Shown: positions 9,609 through 21,235 of the stretch, piece by piece | Position numbering within the stretch: the first letter of the stretch is position 1 | Layout: each line of letters starts with the position of its first letter | Source: an uncultured Flavobacteriales bacterium | GTDB lineage: Bacteria; Bacteroidota; Bacteroidia; Flavobacteriales_D; Crocinitomicaceae | NCBI GenBank assembly: GCA_943789205.1 | Contig: CALSTG010000001.1 | Coordinates: 982,435 to 1,046,434, forward strand | DNA: 64,000 nucleotides | Direction of reading: 5' to 3' | The notes under the pieces: model-generated | Database searches by the model: none | Seen by the model: only the letters and a program-made list of their open reading frames with translations | Told to the model about the DNA's origin: nothing | Made by a program: the position numbers and the translations under genes

Positions 9609-12013
9609 ATGAAAAAAATCAGCCTGCTTCTTTTATTACTGTCTTGTATGCAGCTTTCTTTTGCGCAAAAATTCACGATTAGTGGAACTGTAAAAGAAGC
9701 CAAAACGGGAGAACCAATAATTGGCGCCAAAATCTATGATTTAAAATCAAAAAAAGGAACCATCTCAAATGAATATGGCTTTTATAGTCTCACCTTGCCC
9801 CAGGATAGTGTATCCATTAGGGTCTCATACATTGGTTACACAGCTATGGAATATCAATTTGATGGTAAAAAAAATATTGCATTGCCTGTTGAACTTATTG
9901 ACCATTCAAGAACTCGAAGAAGTCACGGTTACCGCTGAAAAAAATATTGAGGAACGCACCCAAATGAGCTCCTTTGATGTCTCCATTGAAAAAATTAAAG
10001 CCCTCCCTGTTTTCTTAGGGAGAGAAAGACATCATTAAAACCATACAGCTCTTTCCAGGTGTTCAGTCGGGTAGTGAAGGCTCAAGTGGAATTTACGTTC
10101 GTGGTGGAGGCCAAGACCAAAACCTCATGCTTTTAGATGGTGTTCCCATTTACAATGCAACCCACTTATTTGGCTTCTTTTCCATATTCAATGCAGATGC
10201 GATCAATAAGGTAACGATGATTAAAGGAGGGTTCCCGGCGCGCTATGGAGGCCGTTTGTCTTCTGTCCTCGATATCAGAATGAAAGAAGGAAATATGAAG
10301 GAGTTTCATGGAGAAGGTAGTATTGGATTGATCTCATCGAAGCTATCTCTAGAGGGCCCAATTAAAAAAGACAAAACTTCGTTTATCGTTTCGGGAAGAC
10401 GTACATACATAGATGTTCTTGCGAGACCTTTTATTAATATGCGTAATAGAAACCAAAGCAGTGGAAAAGGTGAAGAAGGCTCAAGTGAAACACAAACAGG
10501 GGGCTATTACTTTTGGGATTTAAATGCGAAAATCAACCATAAGTTTTCCGAGACCAGCAGGCTCTACTTGAGTGGCTACTTTGGAAGAGATCGTTTCTAT
10601 AACGATGCTACCAATACCTATACCACGGATGAAGACACCTCAAGTACGGACGAAACCTCGAGCAACGGATTAAGATGGGGAAATGCCATTGCGGCGCTGC
10701 GATGGAACAAAATTATTACTCCTAAACTTTTCATGAATCTAACGGGGACTTTCAGTCAATATGAATTTACTGTAGGTGGCCAAAATCAATCAACTACCAC
10801 TTACCAAAACGCTCCTTCAACAAGCCAAAATGTTCTCTTTAACTATAATTCTGGTATTCAAGATTGGACCGTAAAGGCTGATTTTGACTTCAGACCAAAT
10901 CCAAACCATACGATTAAGTTTGGATTTGGAGACACCTACCACACCTTTGTACCGGGGGTGAATCAAATAGCGCTTTCAAATAATACTTCAAGCGGTATTG
11001 ATACCACATTTGGATCGTCAAGACAATATGGTCATGAGCACTGGGCTTATTTTGAGGATGATTGGGAAATTTCAGCACGTCTGAAATTAAACATCGGGAT
11101 TCATTTTTCAGGATTCAAAGCAAATCAGGAGTGGTACCCAAGTATCCAGCCTAGATTCGCAGCAAGATACATGCTCAATGAAAATTCATCATTGAAGATG
11201 TCCTACTCGAGTATGACACAATTTTTACATTTATTGACCAACCCTACAATAGGCTTGCCAACAGACCTGTGGGTTCCTGTAACGGATAGAGTTGCGCCAG
11301 AGTACTCAAATCAGCTTGCCCTGGGTTATGCCCAAACTTTAACTAAGGGATTCCAATTTTCAGTGGAGGGCTATTACAAAGACATGCAGAACCTCATCGC
11401 CTATAAAGAAGGGGTTAGTTTTTTTGGGTCTTCACAAGACTGGCAGGATAAAATCACAGTCGGAAATGGAAATAGCTATGGCCTAGAGGTTCTCGTTGAG
11501 AAGAAATTAGGAAAAACTTCAGGTTGGATTGGTTATACTTTGAGCTGGTCAAATCGACAATTTGACTCTTTGAATTTTGGAAATCCATATCCCTATATCT
11601 ATGACAGAAGACATGATATTGGGCTTGCTGTCACGCATAAGTTTAACGACCGTGTCGATATTGGTGTCGTTTGGGTCTTTGGATCGGGATATGCCACAAC
11701 ACTCGCACAACAAACCTATTTAGGGGTAGATGGTCTTGGTATTGGGGCAAACACACCCTACGCACCCATTGAGCATATTGAGGAACGTAACGATTACAGG
11801 ATGCCCGCCTACCACAGACTCGATATTGGTGTAAACCTTCATAAGAAAAAGAACAACTGGGAGAGTACCTGGAGCTTTGGACTATACAATGCCTACTCCC
11901 GGCAAAATGCATTCTTTCTCTTCTTTGAGGAAGGAAATAATGGAACGCGGACGCTAAATCAGCTTAGCTTATTCCCCATACTCCCTAGTGTTTCATATAG
12001 CTTTAAATTTTAA
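9609..12013 (+). pseudogene. TonB-dependent receptor with CarboxypepD_reg-like N-terminus, interrupted by two apparent +1 insertions (~9902 and ~10021)
   Basis: ORFs 9609-9938, 9769-10038 and 10127-12013 lie in successive frames. Removing one C at 9902/9903 gives ELIDIQELEEVTVTAEKN; removing one A at 10021 gives PVFLGEKDIIKTIQLFPGVQSGSEGSSGIYVRGGGQDQNLMLLDGVPIYN. Confidence 0.88.
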
Positions 12014-12017
12014 AAAC

Positions 12018-12938
12018 ATGAAAAAACTTATTTTATTTTTATCTGCAATACCGCTTCTTTTATTCACGAATTGCACAAAAGAAATTGAGTTCGATGCACA
12101 AGATATTGCGTCAAGAATTGTAGTCAATAGTCTTTTTACAAATGACTCTGTATGGACAGCCAATATTAGCCGAAGTGTTGGTGTATTAGAAAGCACAAGC
12201 TATACCAGCATTAATGATGCCTATGTCTCTATTTTCGATGGAAACGGAGTACAGGTTACCACACTTACCAACCAAGGAGATGGGCTGTACATCTCACCAA
12301 CAGGAGCAACTCCACAGGCCGACGAGCTATATACGATTGAAGTGAGTGCTCCTGGATATACGCCCGTAAACGCAACAAATAGGATTCCGGTCGCCGTTCA
12401 AATCAATAGTATTGACACGGTTAGCAGCACCAATAGCGATGGACAAACCATCCTGGAAACAACGATAAACTTTCAAGACCCGCCTGCAAATGAAAACTTC
12501 TATATGGTGGAAGTTTTGGTCAAAGGCACGTGGATTGACGAATGGGGTGAATTCGAAGAGGATACCATCGAGTTTCGGGAACCACTAGAAATTTCTTGCA
12601 ATGATATCAATGTAGAAACCGTAAATAGATTCAATTTCGGAGGCTTTGAAAACACCTATCTATACCTAATGCTCAAGGATGAAAATTTTGATGGGGAAGA
12701 TTACGCACTCACCTTTAGTGTGATCAATTATGCTGAGCTAAAAGATTTAGAGCTCTTTGGTGAAATTAGATTGGTCAACACCAGCGAGGCTTACTTCAAC
12801 TATCTGAAATCCTTTAATCTATATCAAAGAGCAAGTGGAAATCCATTTGCCACGCCTGTGCAAGTCTACTCTAACGTAGAAAATGGCATGGGAATATTCG
12901 CGGGTGGAACACTCACTTATTGGGATGTTGGATTTTGA
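12018..12938 (+). CDS. DUF4249 domain-containing lipoprotein
   Basis: ATG at 12018; lipobox LLLFTNC; TKEIEFDAQDIASRIVVNSLFTNDSVWTANISRS; follows a TonB receptor. Confidence 0.85.
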   Translation: MKKLILFLSAIPLLLFTNCTKEIEFDAQDIASRIVVNSLFTNDSVWTANISRSVGVLESTSYTSINDAYVSIFDGNGVQVTTLTNQGDGLYISPTGATPQADELYTIEVSAPGYTPVNATNRIPVAVQINSIDTVSSTNSDGQTILETTINFQDPPANENFYMVEVLVKGTWIDEWGEFEEDTIEFREPLEISCNDINVETVNRFNFGGFENTYLYLMLKDENFDGEDYALTFSVINYAELKDLELFGEIRLVNTSEAYFNYLKSFNLYQRASGNPFATPVQVYSNVENGMGIFAGGTLTYWDVGF

Positions 12939-13603: not shown

Positions 13604-15307
13604 TTAAGCTTCACCTGTTATAGATTGCGTCACGCTGATTGCATGGTCACCAATCTTCTCTAATGAGTTAAACAAATCGCTATATATTGCGGCATTATCA
13701 TACCGATATTCCCCTTTTTCTACATTTGTAAAGTGCTCCTTTCGAATTTCTTTGCGCAGCTTGTTGAGACTTTTTTCAAGCTTTTTTGCCTCGGTAAGTT
13801 CCACCTCAGAATAGCGCATCTCTAAATTCTTGCACATGTTTTCAAGTACCTGATTCATCAACGAATACATTTCAAGCAATCGTTCTCTTTGCTCTGGAGT
13901 AAACCAAATTTTATTTTTACGCTTACGTTCTGTCGTTTTCGAGATCTGATAATAAATATCTGCAATTCGCTCCATGTCTCCGACCATACTAAGCATCGCA
14001 CGAATCTTTTCAGAAGTTCGCTCACTAAGCTCATTTTGAGAGACCTTAGTTAAATAGCTTGCAACCTCCTCTTCGATTTTATCTGTAATATCCTCGTACT
14101 TGGCAATTCTATCGATGTAATTTCTAAACTCGGATTCCTTTTTTTCCAACAAAATCGTCTGACAAAATGTATTCATTCTCGAAACAATTTTACCAAGCTT
14201 TACAACTTCTCTTTGTGCCTCCAATAAAGAAAGCTCTCCGACAGGAATCGTTGAGGAGAAGAACTTAAGCTGAAACATTTCATCATCGTCAGTTTTGGAG
14301 GGCAATATTCGGACGACCAATCGCTCAATATGCGGAATAAACCACAATAAGAGAAGTGTATTGACAATATTAAATGAAAGGTGGTATACCGCTAAAGACC
14401 ATCGCGTTGTTGACTCAGAATCACCATCAATAATAAGGGCGTTGAAAAAAGTTTCACTTACCAAATAGTCCACAAACTTGAGAAAAGGATAGAAGATCGC
14501 GAGCATCCACAATACGCCAATCACATTGAAGAACAAATGCGCCCTTGCCGCTCTTTTCGCATGAACATTTCCAATCATTGCCGCCATATTGGCCGTAATC
14601 GTTGTTCCGATGTTTTCACCCAAAATAATTGCTGCGGCCAATTCTAAGGGAAGTCCATTAAGCCCCCCACAAAGTGAAAGTGTAATTGCCATTGCAGCGC
14701 TACTCGACTGAACCACAACTGTCAATAGCGTTCCTATTCCAACAAAAATAATGACAGAGCCAAAGCCAAATTGATCAAGTGGTTCAATAATGGTTTTTAT
14801 GAAGGTAGGATCCTCTTTTATAAAACTCATCAAGTCTTTGAGGGCATCAAGACCTCTAAATAATAGAGCAAAGCCAATTAGAAACTCACCAAAAGATTTG
14901 AGTTTTGAATTGGACATAAAAAATAGCGGAAGGCCAATAGCAATAATCGGAAGTGAATAATCTGAAATACTGAATTTTCCGAAACCAAACGCCAACAAAA
15001 GAAATGCCGTAACTGTAGTTCCTATATTGGCGCCCATGATAACTCCTATAGCCTGTCGCAAGGACAATAAGCCAGCATTAACAAAGCTTACAATCATTAC
15101 TGTTGTGGCACTAGAAGACTGAATGATCGCCGTTGTACCAAAACCTGTAAATATTCCAGCAATTCGATTTTGAGTAATCTTTCGAAGGATTGAGCGCATT
15201 TGGTCCCCAGCGAATTTCTGAATTCCATCACTCATTATTTTCATTCCGAAAATAAAAAGACCGAGGGCTCCGATTAAAGAGAGGAACTCATAAAGACCAA
15301 AACTCAT
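13604..15307 (-). CDS. Na/Pi cotransporter family protein with C-terminal PhoU-like domain
   Basis: LGLFIFGMKIMSDGIQKFAGDQMRSIL, duplicated QSSSAT/QSSSAA motifs, cytoplasmic helical PhoU-like tail. Confidence 0.93.
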   Translation of the reverse strand: MSFGLYEFLSLIGALGLFIFGMKIMSDGIQKFAGDQMRSILRKITQNRIAGIFTGFGTTAIIQSSSATTVMIVSFVNAGLLSLRQAIGVIMGANIGTTVTAFLLLAFGFGKFSISDYSLPIIAIGLPLFFMSNSKLKSFGEFLIGFALLFRGLDALKDLMSFIKEDPTFIKTIIEPLDQFGFGSVIIFVGIGTLLTVVVQSSSAAMAITLSLCGGLNGLPLELAAAIILGENIGTTITANMAAMIGNVHAKRAARAHLFFNVIGVLWMLAIFYPFLKFVDYLVSETFFNALIIDGDSESTTRWSLAVYHLSFNIVNTLLLLWFIPHIERLVVRILPSKTDDDEMFQLKFFSSTIPVGELSLLEAQREVVKLGKIVSRMNTFCQTILLEKKESEFRNYIDRIAKYEDITDKIEEEVASYLTKVSQNELSERTSEKIRAMLSMVGDMERIADIYYQISKTTERKRKNKIWFTPEQRERLLEMYSLMNQVLENMCKNLEMRYSEVELTEAKKLEKSLNKLRKEIRKEHFTNVEKGEYRYDNAAIYSDLFNSLEKIGDHAISVTQSITGEA

Positions 15308-15480
15308 ACGTAATTTTTAACAAATCTATAATTAGTATTCCAATTATGCCTATCCAGATGTTAAATTATTATTAACATTTACTAATTATGGCTGCGGGTC
15401 ATACTCGAATTAGAAAAACTTTATTGATGTTTAAAACAGCATCAACATTTTAAATGGGATGGTCAAAGCTCGAGAAAGGT

Positions 15481-15825
15481 CTATTCGCCTTTTAGGTTTT
15501 CCTTAAAATGCGGATCTTCATTGATTTCAATCTTCGATTTCGGATGCTTGGTATGGATATACTTCATTAGCATCTTCATTTCATCATAATTTGAATATTG
15601 ATAATCGATGAGCGTTACTGAAATTTCTTGATACAACTTCTCCTCAAAAAACTCCCATTCCATAGATTCAATCTTCGCAATGGGTTTTCCATCTTTTAAA
15701 ATACTCCAGCCTTGTTCTGAAAATCCTGAGTTCTTCATTTCTTCCTCTGTAAAAGTGAAAGATTCTGTTGTTGCGCATGAAGAAAATAGCACAGAAAATA
15801 AAACGAGAATCAATAGTGGTTTCAT
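15481..15825 (-). CDS. Hypothetical lipoprotein
   Basis: Internal ATG gives MKPLLILVLFSVLFSSCATTES lipobox; no recognised domain. Confidence 0.6.
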   Translation of the reverse strand: MKPLLILVLFSVLFSSCATTESFTFTEEEMKNSGFSEQGWSILKDGKPIAKIESMEWEFFEEKLYQEISVTLIDYQYSNYDEMKMLMKYIHTKHPKSKIEINEDPHFKENLKGE

Positions 15826-15863
15826 ATAATTAAATTTTGATGACAAATTTAAGTGTTTCAAGA

Positions 15864-15890
15864 TTAAGTCTAAGTTAATTTAATTTTAAA
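15864..15890. promoter_or_regulatory. 11-bp-periodic TTAA(G/T/A) triplet
   Basis: TTAAG 15864, TTAAT 15875, TTAAA 15886; exact 11-bp spacing, but AT-rich context. Confidence 0.3.
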
Positions 15891-16166
15891 TAATTCATAT
15901 CTTTTCTAAAGAAATTAGGATTTAATTTTTTTTGTCCCGCAATCGGTCATCTTCATGCCTTTTTCTCTTTGAATCGTCATTATTTATATACTCGCTCATT
16001 TGTTTTCGGTTTTGTAACTCGTGGTAGACACCAACGCTTTTATTTTCAATCCGCAAAATCAGTGCTTTTTATCCTTACTTTTTTATCAAATCCAGTTCGA
16101 TATGGTCAATTATTTTAATGGTGTGAATGATAATTGTGACATTCACTTTAAAGTTTAAAGCTTGTT

Positions 16167-16193
16167 TTAACATTACCTTAACTTTCTGTTAAT
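16167..16193 (+). promoter_or_regulatory. Tandem 11-bp-periodic TTAAC/T repeats (Pho-box-like) upstream of the response regulator
   Basis: TTAAC 16167-16171, TTAAC 16178-16182, TTAAT 16189-16193. Confidence 0.5.
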
Positions 16194-16240
16194 TAATTCC
16201 AATTGTATTCTTATTTACTTTAACCCAAAAATAAACAGGT

Positions 16241-16921
16241 GTGAAAAAAACAGCAAAGTCAATAGTTCTTGTAGACGATGACCATGATATTTTAGAGTTT
16301 TTAACTTATAATTTACGTCAAGCTGATTATAAAGTCTATACGGCAACAAACGGTGAGGATGCGATTGCCTTGGTTAATAAGATTGAACCCTCTTTGGTTT
16401 TAATGGATATTATGATGCCGGGTATCGATGGTATAGAGGCCCTAAGATTAATCAGAGCCTCAAGAATAAATGAACAGCCATTGATTGTACTACTTACTGC
16501 GAGGTCAGAGGAGTATTCTCAAATAGCTGGATTCGATGCAGGCGCTGATGATTTCATAACTAAACCGATTCGGCCTAGATTGTTACTTGCAAAAATTGAG
16601 GCTTTACTGAGAAGAAAAGCTGTCAGAAATAACAACGAAATTCAAACTGAGTTTAATGATGTTAAAATTAATCGAGAAAAGTTTACGGTGACCTTTAATG
16701 GCAATGAAATTCAAATTCCTAAAAAGGAATTTGAATTGCTTGAGCTTTTTTTTAGTAGGCCAGGAAAGGTCTTTAAAAGACAACAGATTTTATCTCTTTT
16801 GTGGGGAGACGATACTATTGTAGGAGAGCGAACAGTCGATGTGCACATTAGAAAACTACGTGAAAGGTTTGGTGATAAAATGATTCACACAGTAAAGGGA
16901 GTAGGGTATTCCATTACTTAA
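16241..16921 (+). CDS. OmpR/PhoB-type response regulator (no histidine kinase adjacent)
   Basis: GTG start; receiver VLVDDDHDILEFL...LMDIMMPGIDG...FITKPI; winged-helix C-terminus GERTVDVHIRKLRERFGDKMIHTVKGVGYSI. Confidence 0.95.
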   Translation: MKKTAKSIVLVDDDHDILEFLTYNLRQADYKVYTATNGEDAIALVNKIEPSLVLMDIMMPGIDGIEALRLIRASRINEQPLIVLLTARSEEYSQIAGFDAGADDFITKPIRPRLLLAKIEALLRRKAVRNNNEIQTEFNDVKINREKFTVTFNGNEIQIPKKEFELLELFFSRPGKVFKRQQILSLLWGDDTIVGERTVDVHIRKLRERFGDKMIHTVKGVGYSIT

Positions 16922-16931
16922 AAAGCAAATG

Positions 16932-16989
16932 TTAACCCTGTGTTAACAAAATCCTGTAATTCATAATCTCAAAATAACATTCGATTAAC
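16932..16989 (+). promoter_or_regulatory. Two pairs of 11-bp-periodic TTAAC/ATAAC repeats
   Basis: TTAAC 16932 and 16943; ATAAC 16974 and TTAAC 16985; both pairs have 11-bp period. Confidence 0.45.
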
Positions 16990-17043
16990 GAAAACAACAC
17001 AAGTGTCATAGATATTTGCACCAAACAATTGAAAAAAATCAAA

Positions 17044-18264
17044 ATGAAAAAAACAATTCTATTTTTTGCCGTTGCATCGTTAGTGGCGGTAACAAGCTGT
17101 AAAAAGAAAGGATGTACAGATCCTACTGCTATTAACTACAATTCTGAAGCAGAGAAAGATGACGGTACGTGCGAATACGAACAAGATCAAACCACCGTAA
17201 CTGTTGCGAGCAACATCACAACGAATACAACATGGACTGCAGATAACGTTTATCTTTTAACGAGTCGAGTGGCTGTTGAAGCAGGAGCTGAGCTAACCAT
17301 TGAGGCAGGAACTATCATTAAAGGACAAGCTGGAACAGGTGCAAACGCCACTGCTCTTTTGATCGCAAGAGGTGGTAAGCTTTTTGCCAATGGAACCGCA
17401 GGTGCTCCTATTATATTTACATCTGTAGCTGATGAAATTATGCCCGGAGAAAACGTAAGTCCAAACTTAGACCCTACACTTAATGGTCTATGGGGTGGAT
17501 TAATTGTGTTAGGTAATGCGCCAATTTCTGCAGCCTCTGATGCTGTTCAGATAGAAGGTGTTCCGCCATCGGATGCAAATGGCCTTTACGGAGGTTCTGA
17601 CGCAGCTGATAATTCAGGTTCTATTACCTATGTTTCTATTCGTCACGGTGGAGCAAACATCGGTGAAGGGAACGAAATCAATGGACTTACTCTTGGTGGA
17701 GTCGGATCAGGAACAACCGTTTCAAACATTGAGGTTGTAGGGAATCAAGATGATGGAATAGAATTTTTTGGAGGAACCGTTAATGTTTCAAACGCTTTAG
17801 TATGGAATGCAGGTGATGACGCCATTGACACAGATCAAGGTTGGTCGGGAACACTTGACAACTTTATTATAGTGAATCCAGGAGATGAGTGCTTTGAGCT
17901 TGACGGACCAGAAGGTTCAGCTTCAGGAACGCATACCATTACCAACGGAACGACTTACGCTGGTGTAGCACAAGGATTAGTCGATTTAGATGACAATTCA
18001 AACTTGGTATTTACTAATCAGTATTTCTTTGGTGTTGCTGATGGTCAAGATTTTGATCAAGTGCCGACGGCTGATGGATTTTTAGATGCCTCAAATTTGG
18101 AAGTGACACTTCCTGCGGGAGGCGTCTTAACTGATTTCTTTAAAGATGGATCAGATGCCTTTACAACTGAAGTCGCTGAAGGAGCAAATTCGGTTGGTGC
18201 TGATGCTTCAGTGTTGATCGGGTGGACATGGGCTGGTTTATCAGGAAACCTCTCAGGATTCTAA
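17044..18264 (+). CDS. Surface lipoprotein, parallel beta-helix-like
   Basis: ATG at 17044, MKKTILFFAVASLVAVTSCKKK lipobox; GCTDPTAINYNSEAEKDDGTCEY motif; repetitive VAVEAGAELTIEAGTIIKG...beta-helix pattern. Confidence 0.75.
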   Translation: MKKTILFFAVASLVAVTSCKKKGCTDPTAINYNSEAEKDDGTCEYEQDQTTVTVASNITTNTTWTADNVYLLTSRVAVEAGAELTIEAGTIIKGQAGTGANATALLIARGGKLFANGTAGAPIIFTSVADEIMPGENVSPNLDPTLNGLWGGLIVLGNAPISAASDAVQIEGVPPSDANGLYGGSDAADNSGSITYVSIRHGGANIGEGNEINGLTLGGVGSGTTVSNIEVVGNQDDGIEFFGGTVNVSNALVWNAGDDAIDTDQGWSGTLDNFIIVNPGDECFELDGPEGSASGTHTITNGTTYAGVAQGLVDLDDNSNLVFTNQYFFGVADGQDFDQVPTADGFLDASNLEVTLPAGGVLTDFFKDGSDAFTTEVAEGANSVGADASVLIGWTWAGLSGNLSGF

Positions 18265-18284
18265 AAGTAGAATAGATAATTAAC

Positions 18285-18292
18285 TACATTTG
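18285..18292 (+). promoter_or_regulatory. -7 box TACATTTG upstream of TonB receptor
   Basis: Exact TAnnTTTG match between lipoprotein and receptor genes. Confidence 0.4.
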
Positions 18293-18294
18293 CG

Positions 18295-18321
18295 GCACCC
18301 GTACCACCTTGGCACGGGTGC
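18295..18321 (+). promoter_or_regulatory. Leader hairpin GCACCCGT-n11-ACGGGTGC
   Basis: 8-bp perfect stem, possible inner CC/GG pairing; 2 nt after the -7 box and 22 nt before ATG 18344. Confidence 0.55.
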
Positions 18322-18343
18322 TTCGATGTAAAAAAAAAATAAA

Positions 18344-21235
18344 ATGAGAAACCTTTATTCATTATTGTTCTTAATCATGTCTAGTTCTTATGCCGTATTT
18401 GGACAGAACGGAATCATAAGAGGATCCGTTATTGATGGATCTACAGGAGAATCCTTACCCATGGTAAAAATTCAAGTGGAAGGATTAAATAAAGGAGCCT
18501 TCTCAGATCTTGATGGAAAGTTTGAGATTACTATGCCAGTTGGTTCATACAATCTTATTTTCTCCATGTATTCCTATAACAATACAGCAATAAATGGTGT
18601 AGAAGTGACAGCAGAAAAAGTGACCCTTGTTGAAAATACGGAATTGCAGGCGCAAGTCACAGAGTTTGGAGAAGTCACTGTACAAGCAGAGTACAAAAAA
18701 AATACAGAAAATGCGATTCTTCGCATGAAACTGAAATCGGCAAATATGATTGATGGAATTTCTGCTTCAAGTTTTAGAAAAACAGGTGACTCAGATGCTG
18801 CCTCTGCCATGCGGAGAGTACCAGGCATCTCGGTGGCCAATGGAAAATATATTTTTATTCGAGGCATTGGAGACAGATACAATAAAACCATTTTAAATGG
18901 TTTAGATATTCCGGGGCTGGATCCTGACCGGAATACGCTACAAATGGATATTTTCCCTACCTCGCTAATTGACAACATGGTTGTTAATAAAACGTTCAGT
19001 GCTGAGCTTCCGGCAGATTTTACAGGAGGGCTTGTAAATATTGAGCTCGCCAGCTTTCCAAATCAAAAAACACAAAGTATTACTGTTCGAACAGGGTATA
19101 ATCCAAATTTCCATTTGCGAAGTGATTATCTCGACTATGAAGGAGGCAAGCTTGATTTTCTAGGGTTCGATGATGGAACAAGAGAAATTCCAGCAGAAAC
19201 AAATATCCCGTCTTTTGTGCAAACACTTGGCAGCAATACAGCAGCAGCAGATCGTTATGCAGATATTTTAAATTCCTTTAATAAGACGCTTGCAGCAAAA
19301 GAATCACAAAGTTTTTTAGATGGTGGTTTAGCAATGAATTTTGGGAATCAAATCAAAAAAGAAAAAAGAACCATCGCCTACAATTTTATGGTCAATTACA
19401 GAAACAATACTGAATTCTATAGAGATGCATTATTTGCGAGGTATGGACTCCCTGGGGATCCAGACAAAACAGAAATGGATACGCTTGAATATCAAAAAGG
19501 TGATTATGGTGTTAATACAGTGATGCTTAGCTCGCTTGCCGGGTTTGCAGTAAAAACACTAAAGGCAAAATACAGCATTACGGCGATGCACCTTCAAAAT
19601 GGCGAATCAAGTGCGGGTGTTTTTGATTTCATCAATAATGATGAGGGCTCCTACTTTACGGGATACCAACATAATCTATCCTACAGCCAAAAATCGTTAT
19701 CTAACCTTCATCTCGCTGCCAAATATAAATTCGAAGAAAAAAATTGGGACCTAGAATGGAAACTATCACCTACATTCTCTAGAATTAAGGATCCAGATAT
19801 TCGTTTTACTAGATACGAAAATGTAAACGATGGTGGCGTAAGAATTAGCTCTGAATCAGGTTTTCCAGAGCGTATATGGAGAGATCTTTCAGAAATCAAC
19901 GGTGTTGCAATTATCGCTGGAAAGAAAACCTACACCGCATTCGGAACTAAGGCATATTTAAAATTAGGTTCGCGATATACCTATAAGCAAAGAGATTTCT
20001 CGATTAAGAACTTTCAAGTCAATGTAAGAGGAGATATTCCACTTACAGGGGATCCAGACGAATTGTTTCAAGATGAAAATCTATGGCCTTATCTCGGTAA
20101 TCCTCAAGAAGGAACCACAATTGATACGCCATTTTTACCCAACAACCCCAATACCTTTAATTCTAGTATAAGTAATGCTTCAGGATACGTGTCGAATGAA
20201 ATGACAATCGGCAAAAAATTTAAGTCCATTATCGGTATAAGAGCTGAGTATTACACACACAGATATACAGGTCAGGATCAATTGGGGACAAATGTTTTGA
20301 ATAATGAAAAAGTTCTTGAAAACCTCGGGATATTTCCAGCTTTGAACTTGGTCTATTCAGTGACGGAAAATCAAAATTTAAGACTTTCCTACGGAAAAAC
20401 CATCGCTAGACCGTCATTCAAGGAGCTTTCATATGCTGAGATTTTCGACCCAATCACAGGTAGAACCTTTGTTGGTGGATTATTTCGGGATGCAGATAAC
20501 GCGACAGGAATTGTTTATTGGGATGGAGAATTGACAAGTACAGATATACATAACCTAGATTTCAGATGGGAGGTATTCCCTAGTAAAGGACGTACCGTTT
20601 CTATCAGTGCCTTTTACAAAAAGTTTATTAACCCTATTGAAATCATTCAGTACGCCACACAACCAGGTGCTTTTCAGCCAAGAAATGTAGGCGACGGACA
20701 AGTCCTTGGAGGAGAATTCGAGATTCGTGAAAACCTAAGCTGGATTAGTGAGAAGACAGAGGCATTTGATTTTGTGTTAAATGTTACGGTTGTGGATTCT
20801 CGAATTGACTTAAGCCAAACAGAATATGACAGCCGCGTGGCTAACGCAAGAACAGGGCAGGTAATCGAAACCTTCAGAAAAATGGCCGGCCAAGCGCCCT
20901 ACATCATAAATGGTGGTTTTTCTTTTAATGGTGCGGAGAATGGGTTTTTTAGCAACTTTCAAGCAGGTCTGTTTTACAACGTTCAAGGGAAAACATTGCA
21001 GTTCGCAGGTATTGTTGATCGTCCCGATATTTACAGTGTGCCATTTCATAGCTTAAATTTTAATTTCAATAAGGCCTTTGGTAAAGACGAAATGTACAGC
21101 TTAGGTGTTAAAGTCACAAACTGTTTGAATGATAAACGGGAAAGTGTATTTGAATCTTACAATGCACAAAATCAATTCTTTTCACAGCTATCACCAGGGG
21201 TTTCAGGTTCGATAAGGTTTAGAATCAATTTATAA
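18344..21235 (+). CDS. TonB-dependent receptor with carboxypeptidase-regulatory-like N-terminal domain
   Basis: GIIRGSVIDGSTGESLPMVKIQVEG, plug FIRGIGDRYNKTILNGLDIPG, C-terminal beta barrel ending GSIRFRINL. Confidence 0.95.
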   Translation: MRNLYSLLFLIMSSSYAVFGQNGIIRGSVIDGSTGESLPMVKIQVEGLNKGAFSDLDGKFEITMPVGSYNLIFSMYSYNNTAINGVEVTAEKVTLVENTELQAQVTEFGEVTVQAEYKKNTENAILRMKLKSANMIDGISASSFRKTGDSDAASAMRRVPGISVANGKYIFIRGIGDRYNKTILNGLDIPGLDPDRNTLQMDIFPTSLIDNMVVNKTFSAELPADFTGGLVNIELASFPNQKTQSITVRTGYNPNFHLRSDYLDYEGGKLDFLGFDDGTREIPAETNIPSFVQTLGSNTAAADRYADILNSFNKTLAAKESQSFLDGGLAMNFGNQIKKEKRTIAYNFMVNYRNNTEFYRDALFARYGLPGDPDKTEMDTLEYQKGDYGVNTVMLSSLAGFAVKTLKAKYSITAMHLQNGESSAGVFDFINNDEGSYFTGYQHNLSYSQKSLSNLHLAAKYKFEEKNWDLEWKLSPTFSRIKDPDIRFTRYENVNDGGVRISSESGFPERIWRDLSEINGVAIIAGKKTYTAFGTKAYLKLGSRYTYKQRDFSIKNFQVNVRGDIPLTGDPDELFQDENLWPYLGNPQEGTTIDTPFLPNNPNTFNSSISNASGYVSNEMTIGKKFKSIIGIRAEYYTHRYTGQDQLGTNVLNNEKVLENLGIFPALNLVYSVTENQNLRLSYGKTIARPSFKELSYAEIFDPITGRTFVGGLFRDADNATGIVYWDGELTSTDIHNLDFRWEVFPSKGRTVSISAFYKKFINPIEIIQYATQPGAFQPRNVGDGQVLGGEFEIRENLSWISEKTEAFDFVLNVTVVDSRIDLSQTEYDSRVANARTGQVIETFRKMAGQAPYIINGGFSFNGAENGFFSNFQAGLFYNVQGKTLQFAGIVDRPDIYSVPFHSLNFNFNKAFGKDEMYSLGVKVTNCLNDKRESVFESYNAQNQFFSQLSPGVSGSIRFRINL

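Follow-up and report, generated by a model that had tools for sequence, protein, structure and literature searches.

Gene content of a candidate phosphate-responsive locus

We analyzed a 64,000-nucleotide stretch (the window) of the genome of an uncultured Flavobacteriales bacterium of the family Crocinitomicaceae, in which an earlier note, made from the DNA letters alone, had proposed a phosphate-responsive uptake locus at positions 13604 to 21235. The proposed clustering of the genes within 8 kb was borne out by Pfam and NCBIfam profile searches. On the minus strand lies a sodium/phosphate (Na/Pi) cotransporter with a C-terminal PhoU domain (NaPi; 13604..15307; PF02690, 6.5e-60; PF01895, 3.5e-12; TIGR00704 above cutoff). 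The plus strand encodes an orphan PhoB-type response regulator (RR; 16241..16921), a lipoprotein of predicted ElpS-type beta-helix fold and predicted surface location (LP; 17044..18264, in an open reading frame from 17029), and a TonB-dependent receptor that carries a CarboxypepD_reg domain and is not of the SusC type (TBDT; 18344..21235; PF00593, PF07715, PF13715, and TIGR01782). RR combines a receiver (PF00072) with a Trans_reg_C domain (PF00486); its receiver is intact, with conserved phosphoacceptor and switch residues D56, T86, and K108. As the note had observed, no histidine kinase is found among the genes neighboring RR in the window. Between NaPi and RR, a small lipoprotein (15481..15828, minus strand) was recognized by the lipobox LFSSC in its translation; it matched nothing in Pfam or NCBIfam, has no assigned function, and is 97% conserved in a relative (G026).

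An 11-bp repeat upstream of phosphate transport genes

TTAAC repeats with a period of 11 bp lie upstream of RR (TTAAC at 16167 and 16178, TTAAT at 16189) and of LP (TTAAC at 16932 and 16943). The bare pair TTAAC-N6-TTAAC was not enriched genome-wide (11 matches, versus 32 for a reversed control pattern); because it is not rare, the pair by itself is no proof, and its significance comes from location and conservation. Simple motif counting was given up for phylogenetic footprinting because these counts were unenriched. A search with a triple-repeat pattern was also set aside: three of its 13 matches preceded RR, LP, and RR2 (the second PhoB of the genome), the others being mostly intragenic or upstream of unrelated genes.

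Footprinting was applied to the upstream regions of 92 LP homologs, with the closest members of the window's clade left out. These regions contained 51 TAAC pairs spaced exactly 11 bp apart, against 0.97 expected from shuffles, and further pairs at 22 bp (22 cases), 33 bp (24 cases), and 44 bp (11 cases); most other distances were represented by few cases each. A matrix (TTAACAtT.aGGTAACAtTG...TAAC) was built from 88 training sites, a set that excluded the window and its closest kin, and scanned over both strands. The seven best sites in the 64 kb all fell within 15343-16964, upstream of NaPi, the small lipoprotein, RR, and LP. The best of all was the candidate box of RR (16167..16199, plus strand), whose score of 21.0 exceeded the maximum in 20 Markov windows (17.5); the candidate box of the small lipoprotein (15857..15889, minus strand; 16.9) was second best in the whole window. 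This box and the weak candidate box of NaPi (15343..15375, minus strand; 13.7; 35 bp from the start codon) lay under the Markov maximum. The candidate box of LP (16932..16964, plus strand) scored 12.6 and has its counterpart in the 11-bp TAAC repeats of homologous upstream regions. Of 24 intergenic regions, the three at this locus took ranks 1 to 3. Elsewhere in the genome, RR2 has an upstream box with a score of 22.5.

Among the loci retrieved, an exact TAAC-11-TAAC box preceded 42 of 76 LP genes compared with 58 of 804 other genes (Fisher P = 9e-24), a background that still counts Pit genes as well as divergent neighbors with which LP has its intergenic stretch in common. Its frequency before LP was independent of a nearby phoB (35/64 without, 6/11 with). 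The same box stood before 6/7 Pit/PHO4 genes and 7/10 NaPi genes of relatives (Fisher P = 3e-12). Since it precedes both classes of phosphate transporter, the 11-bp TTAAC tandem repeat is a predicted Pho box, and RR is predicted to bind it. PhoB boxes are built of 11-nucleotide units, that of Escherichia coli PhoB being CTGTCAT (PMC4415409), and the Pho box of Synechocystis SphR, a cyanobacterial PhoB, consists of three copies of CTTAACCT (PMC1906773). Both are tandem direct repeats with an 11-bp period, as here, and the TTAAC core resembles that of SphR. No published Bacteroidota Pho box was found in the open-license literature searched.

As a separate observation, a Pit-type PHO4 transporter with its own box lies ~2 kb downstream of the LP-TBDT pair in Flavobacteriaceae (L165, L166, L173-L175, and L179, at ~16.1-18.5 kb).

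Phylogeny of RR and its likely kinase

The best NCBIfam model for RR was PhoB (TIGR02154; 211 bits), at scores below the PhoB equivalog cutoffs (211 < 296 and 195 < 270 bits). The PhoR-adjacent PhoBs of relatives likewise fell below them (201-220 and 198-215 bits); the cutoff is therefore not discriminating here, and we name RR a PhoB paralog rather than an equivalog. Three PhoB-type regulators are encoded in the genome. RR2 is 58% identical to RR and adjoins a PhoR/PnpS-like kinase (HK2; C1:1438188-1439222). RR3 lies shortly upstream of a pafA-like phosphatase gene (L212:9337-12413, equivalent to G000:C1:577336-580412); no exact TAAC-11-TAAC box was found near pafA, in agreement with the constitutive pafA expression reported in Flavobacterium johnsoniae.

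In a phylogenetic tree, RR and its positional counterparts in G025, G060 (L101), and G062 (L103) formed a clade (support 100/99) that was sister to RR2 (95/89) within the PhoB clade of the family, with the other OmpR-type regulators of the genome as the outgroup. An exclusive clade of the window RR and RR2 was rejected (approximately unbiased [AU] test, p 0.014). The recognition helix GERTVDVHIRKLRE is common to RR and the PhoR-adjacent PhoBs. On this phylogeny, RR is a lineage-specific PhoB paralog, that is, a duplicate.

The distribution of RR and RR2 among related genomes, taken for each genome from contiguous sequence, was reciprocal. RR2 stands beside HK2, and RR is absent, in G026, G061, G032, and G063; G026, a close relative, and G061 retain LP-TBDT but have no regulator beside it, and no LP was found in G032 and G063. 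Conversely, RR stands at LP in G025, G060, G062, and G076, where HK2 occupies its old place and the adjacent phoB is gone. The window genome has both regulators, and a PhoR-like kinase is retained in all of these genomes. By simple counting, exact complementarity of four versus four among eight genomes, which are related, has a chance of 1 in 70; we take it as support for the pairing, not proof. Because RR and RR2 stand in for one another in genomes that all retain the PhoR-like kinase, HK2 is the likely partner of RR, which is most likely driven in trans by this kinase. The PhoR-like kinase gene of G062 (L275:682-1713) contains an in-frame TGA, which may reflect decay or an assembly error.

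The RR-LP-TBDT contig of G060 (5676 bp) has an exact 141-nucleotide terminal overlap (L101:1-141 and L101:5536-5676) and so closes on itself, and contigs of G025 (95.6% DNA identity to G060) and G076 join post-TBDT to pre-RR sequence (L069:5665-5877; L296:1-189). The unit in these relatives would be either a tandem array or a 5.5-kb circle. The 95.6% DNA identity of the block in G025 and G060, versus 64% for the HK2 protein, raised the question of horizontal transfer between the two; transfer is not needed, since the protein encoded beside HK2 is 93% identical and HK2 is fast evolving. Another possibility weighed was mis-binning of the two small contigs; taking RR away would leave those genomes with a PhoR lacking a cognate PhoB. 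We offer only tentatively, as a possible history, that a PhoB duplicate moved beside its LP-TBDT operon and then displaced the original PhoB in several species, with PhoR staying put, and that the RR-LP-TBDT block is amplifiable or mobile, so that control of the receptors that scavenge phosphate would be linked to dose. The amplifiable or mobile unit in this history is drawn from the self-closing contig and the head-to-tail junctions.

The lipoprotein-receptor pair across genomes

LP (411 amino acids [aa]; likely start codon ATG at 17044) carries the lipobox VTSC, whose Cys codon lies at 17098, and has no Pfam match. The best PDB neighbors (Foldseek) of its AlphaFold 2 model (pLDDT 90.3, pTM 0.88) were parallel beta-helices, none of them close (lowest E 2.7e-3; TM to query ≤0.35, mostly 0.2-0.35). 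The LP sequence matched no lyase family in Pfam, and its PDB sequence matches all had E values of 0.6 or higher. An invariant acidic ladder (mature numbering: N192, E193, and N195; N216, D218, D219, and E222; D240, D241, D244, and D246; E267, D269, and E272), spaced like successive rungs of the helix, may form a face that binds a metal or ligand. The sole NCBIfam match of TBDT was TIGR01782; TBDT did not match the SusC/RagA models, and LP has no SusD domain according to Pfam and NCBIfam. The TBDT model (pLDDT 80.7) showed the general fold of such receptors, with siderophore and heme receptors as the nearest PDB neighbors in Foldseek, and gave no pointer to a substrate.

The pair is strongly conserved. 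Of 80 named Bacteroidota loci, 77 had TBDT directly after LP and the remaining three ran into a contig end; 19/20 relatives also had LP followed directly by TBDT. phoB, often together with phoR, occurred in the LP-TBDT locus of 10/15 order-level relatives and in 11 further named loci, including those of Maribacter and Acidiluteibacter. Outside the phylum, LP homologs were detected in Alteromonas and Sphingomonas. Alteromonas macleodii plasmid pBGP9 (L276, 15166-26226) carries a phoB-phoR-PstS-2-oxoglutarate (2OG) oxygenase-LP-TBDT block, whose LP has the beta-helix domain in three repeats. In Sphingomonas and Indioceanicola, homologs in the order LP-TBDT are followed by type II secretion system (T2SS) genes of the gspC/gspD type; between the window and the Sphingomonas pair beside gspD, identity was 39% over 210 aa for LP (E 2e-27) and 23% over 708 aa for TBDT (E 9e-43). 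In a Pfam survey of LP-TBDT neighbors, the common families comprised just MoxR, MORN, and HD genes of lineage context; phosphatases and nucleases were absent from them, and the survey gave no substrate pointer. No PstS-type protein (PF12849) was detected in the genome, which is ~95% complete; PF12849 matches in genus relatives were not counted as evidence of a Pst system.

In many genus relatives (L213:4126-11494; L214, L215, L217, L218, and L226), the site that holds just phoB-phoR in the window genome is occupied by an unbroken series of TBDT, an LP of ~850-1070 aa, phoB, and phoR, often preceded by a box. The one long LP scanned, that of L213, has a type IX secretion system (T9SS) sorting tail and PKD and Ig domains. 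Directly adjoining the locus in the window (10127-12938), another TonB-dependent receptor followed by a DUF4249 lipoprotein forms a second receptor/lipoprotein pair, which has no box among the top matrix sites.

A proposed Pho-regulon uptake system and its alternatives

We consider it probable that this is a Pho-regulon locus in which an unlinked PhoR-like kinase has both RR and RR2 as its regulators and the boxes control LP-TBDT for the uptake of phosphate-containing molecules. When phosphate is scarce, HK2 would phosphorylate the adjacent RR2 and also RR, the duplicate beside its targets. Phosphorylated RR would then act on the 11-bp TTAAC boxes to switch on its own gene and the LP-TBDT operon, and probably also the divergent NaPi and small lipoprotein genes. 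LP, presumably at the cell surface, would capture or help process phosphate-containing molecules and hand them to TBDT, which would draw on TonB energy for their import. Once set free in the periplasm, Pi would enter the cytoplasm through NaPi. With no PstS-type protein (PF12849) encoded in the genome, this step would depend at least in part on NaPi (the search of this genome did not extend to Pit). Organic phosphate is at least as likely a cargo as Pi.

Different roles for RR can be envisaged. It might be a dedicated regulator that answers another kinase or a signal other than phosphate, with the pair taking up, for example, a metal complex or siderophore. The fold neighbors of TBDT are mainly iron and heme receptors, binding to tandem repeats is general to OmpR/PhoB regulators, the genome has 16 HATPase_c matches, and RR diverges faster (62-67%) than LP and TBDT, all of which fit such a role. 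Yet RR is sister to the PhoR-adjacent PhoB and shares its recognition helix, other genomes have RR without that PhoB while retaining PhoR, and Pit and NaPi transporters have this box upstream as well, so that we regard a nonphosphate role as very doubtful. Only slightly less doubtful is that RR is a decaying or redundant duplicate with no separate role, the locus being controlled by RR2-PhoR alone: LP-TBDT occurs without RR in G026 and G061, and both boxes could serve RR2, yet the receiver and DNA-binding residues of RR are intact, its gene has a strong box of its own, and in G025 it is the sole PhoB apart from the pafA-type paralog (E ≤ 1e-45). The function of LP bears on a further reading, which is compatible with the regulatory part of our proposal: LP could be an enzyme, such as a pectate-lyase-like polysaccharide or phospho-glycan lyase, in a carbohydrate-type locus that came secondarily under Pi control. 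LP shares its predicted beta-helix fold with PL3, PL6, and PME, the invariant acidic ladder has the rung-like spacing of Ca-dependent lyases, and Lidbury et al. suggested polygalacturonase-like modeling for the F. johnsoniae lipoprotein (PMC8115612). We nevertheless find this somewhat unlikely, given that LP matches no lyase family by sequence, that its structural matches are as remote as described above, and that preparations of ElpS had no phosphatase activity of their own.

Several points weigh against the Pho-regulon interpretation that we prefer. The LP box of the window (12.6) is weaker than that of RR (21.0), and RR and all tested Bacteroidota relatives fall under the strict NCBIfam PhoB cutoffs. 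The reciprocal loss is based on eight related genomes, mostly fragmented assemblies, and the homology to ElpS and to the F. johnsoniae lipoprotein FII on synteny and published statements. Expression of the locus and binding of RR to the boxes in this organism are predictions from sequence.

The earlier note had made a real observation and had read the regulation correctly. The 11-bp repeats it reported before RR and LP are real features, as the 51 pairs against 0.97 expected and the seven top matrix sites attest; what carries them is location and conservation, the bare pair not being rare. It overlooked the candidate boxes of NaPi and the small lipoprotein. Its assignment of the regulator to the PhoB type agrees with the tree, which does not group RR with non-Pho families, and its idea of Pho-box-like repeats at a phosphate-regulon uptake locus is supported by the boxes before Pit, NaPi, and LP. 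A beta-helix lipoprotein in place of SusD, as it had suggested, accords with the LP model and the non-SusC receptor, and the cognate PhoR that it advised looking for elsewhere in the genome is most likely the unlinked HK2. Its description of the system as self-contained was not supported: the kinase is PhoR-like and unlinked, G026 has LP-TBDT with no local regulator, and similar boxes occur at other loci.

Taken together, these results provide a conserved DNA signature that connects a widespread, mostly unannotated lipoprotein/receptor pair with the Pho regulon throughout Bacteroidota, and they relate this pair to proteobacterial ElpS. The box, KTAACATTNNG with an 11-bp repeat period, is also found before Pit and NaPi and would allow phosphate regulons to be predicted in Bacteroidota. 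The splitting of PhoB from PhoR, with reciprocal loss, would constitute a natural experiment in which two-component partners are unlinked yet still paired.

Comparison with known systems

The window pair shares with SusCD and PusCD the combination of a surface lipoprotein with a TonB-dependent receptor and differs from them in the absence of a SusD domain and a SusC/RagA signature. The siderophore receptor XusA-XusB (PDB 9gbc), which is among the Foldseek matches of the window TBDT, also pairs such a receptor with a non-SusD surface lipoprotein; however, identity is 13%, its cargo is iron rather than phosphate, and the comparison covered the receptor.

Closer parallels are found in F. johnsoniae and Caulobacter crescentus. 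The F. johnsoniae clusters PUSIV and PUSIII (Fjoh_0543-0546 and Fjoh_3856/3857) likewise combine PhoB, a TonB-dependent receptor, and a pectin-lyase-fold lipoprotein, and their receptor and lipoprotein are strongly induced by Pi depletion only; in PUSIV, these are Fjoh_0545 and the lipoprotein FII (Fjoh_0546), and phoB is induced moderately (PMC8115612). In PUSIV, phoR lies beside phoB and the order is receptor-lipoprotein, whereas the window locus has a second PhoB as its regulator and an unlinked phoR, its lipoprotein gene precedes that of the receptor, and a Na/Pi cotransporter is adjacent. In C. crescentus, ElpS is an extracellular lipoprotein made only under Pi starvation and encoded beside a TonB-dependent receptor; it raises the phosphatase activity of the supernatant without being a phosphatase itself, and its release is helped by a T2SS (PMC2996285). 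The Caulobacter order, elpS (cc0170), cc0171, and then the T2SS (PMC2996285), is that of the LP and TBDT homologs beside T2SS genes in Sphingomonas and Indioceanicola. In contrast to ElpS, the Bacteroidota pairs have no adjacent T2SS genes, and genus relatives have a T9SS tail (shown in L213). By gene order and sequence family, LP-TBDT is the putative Bacteroidota counterpart of ElpS-CC0171 and resembles the FII lipoprotein and receptor of PUSIV. As a concept, the Pi-induced lipoprotein/receptor pair is thus already known from F. johnsoniae (PMC8115612) and Caulobacter (PMC2996285); no description of the split, relocated PhoB or of the phylum-level box was found in the open-license literature searched.

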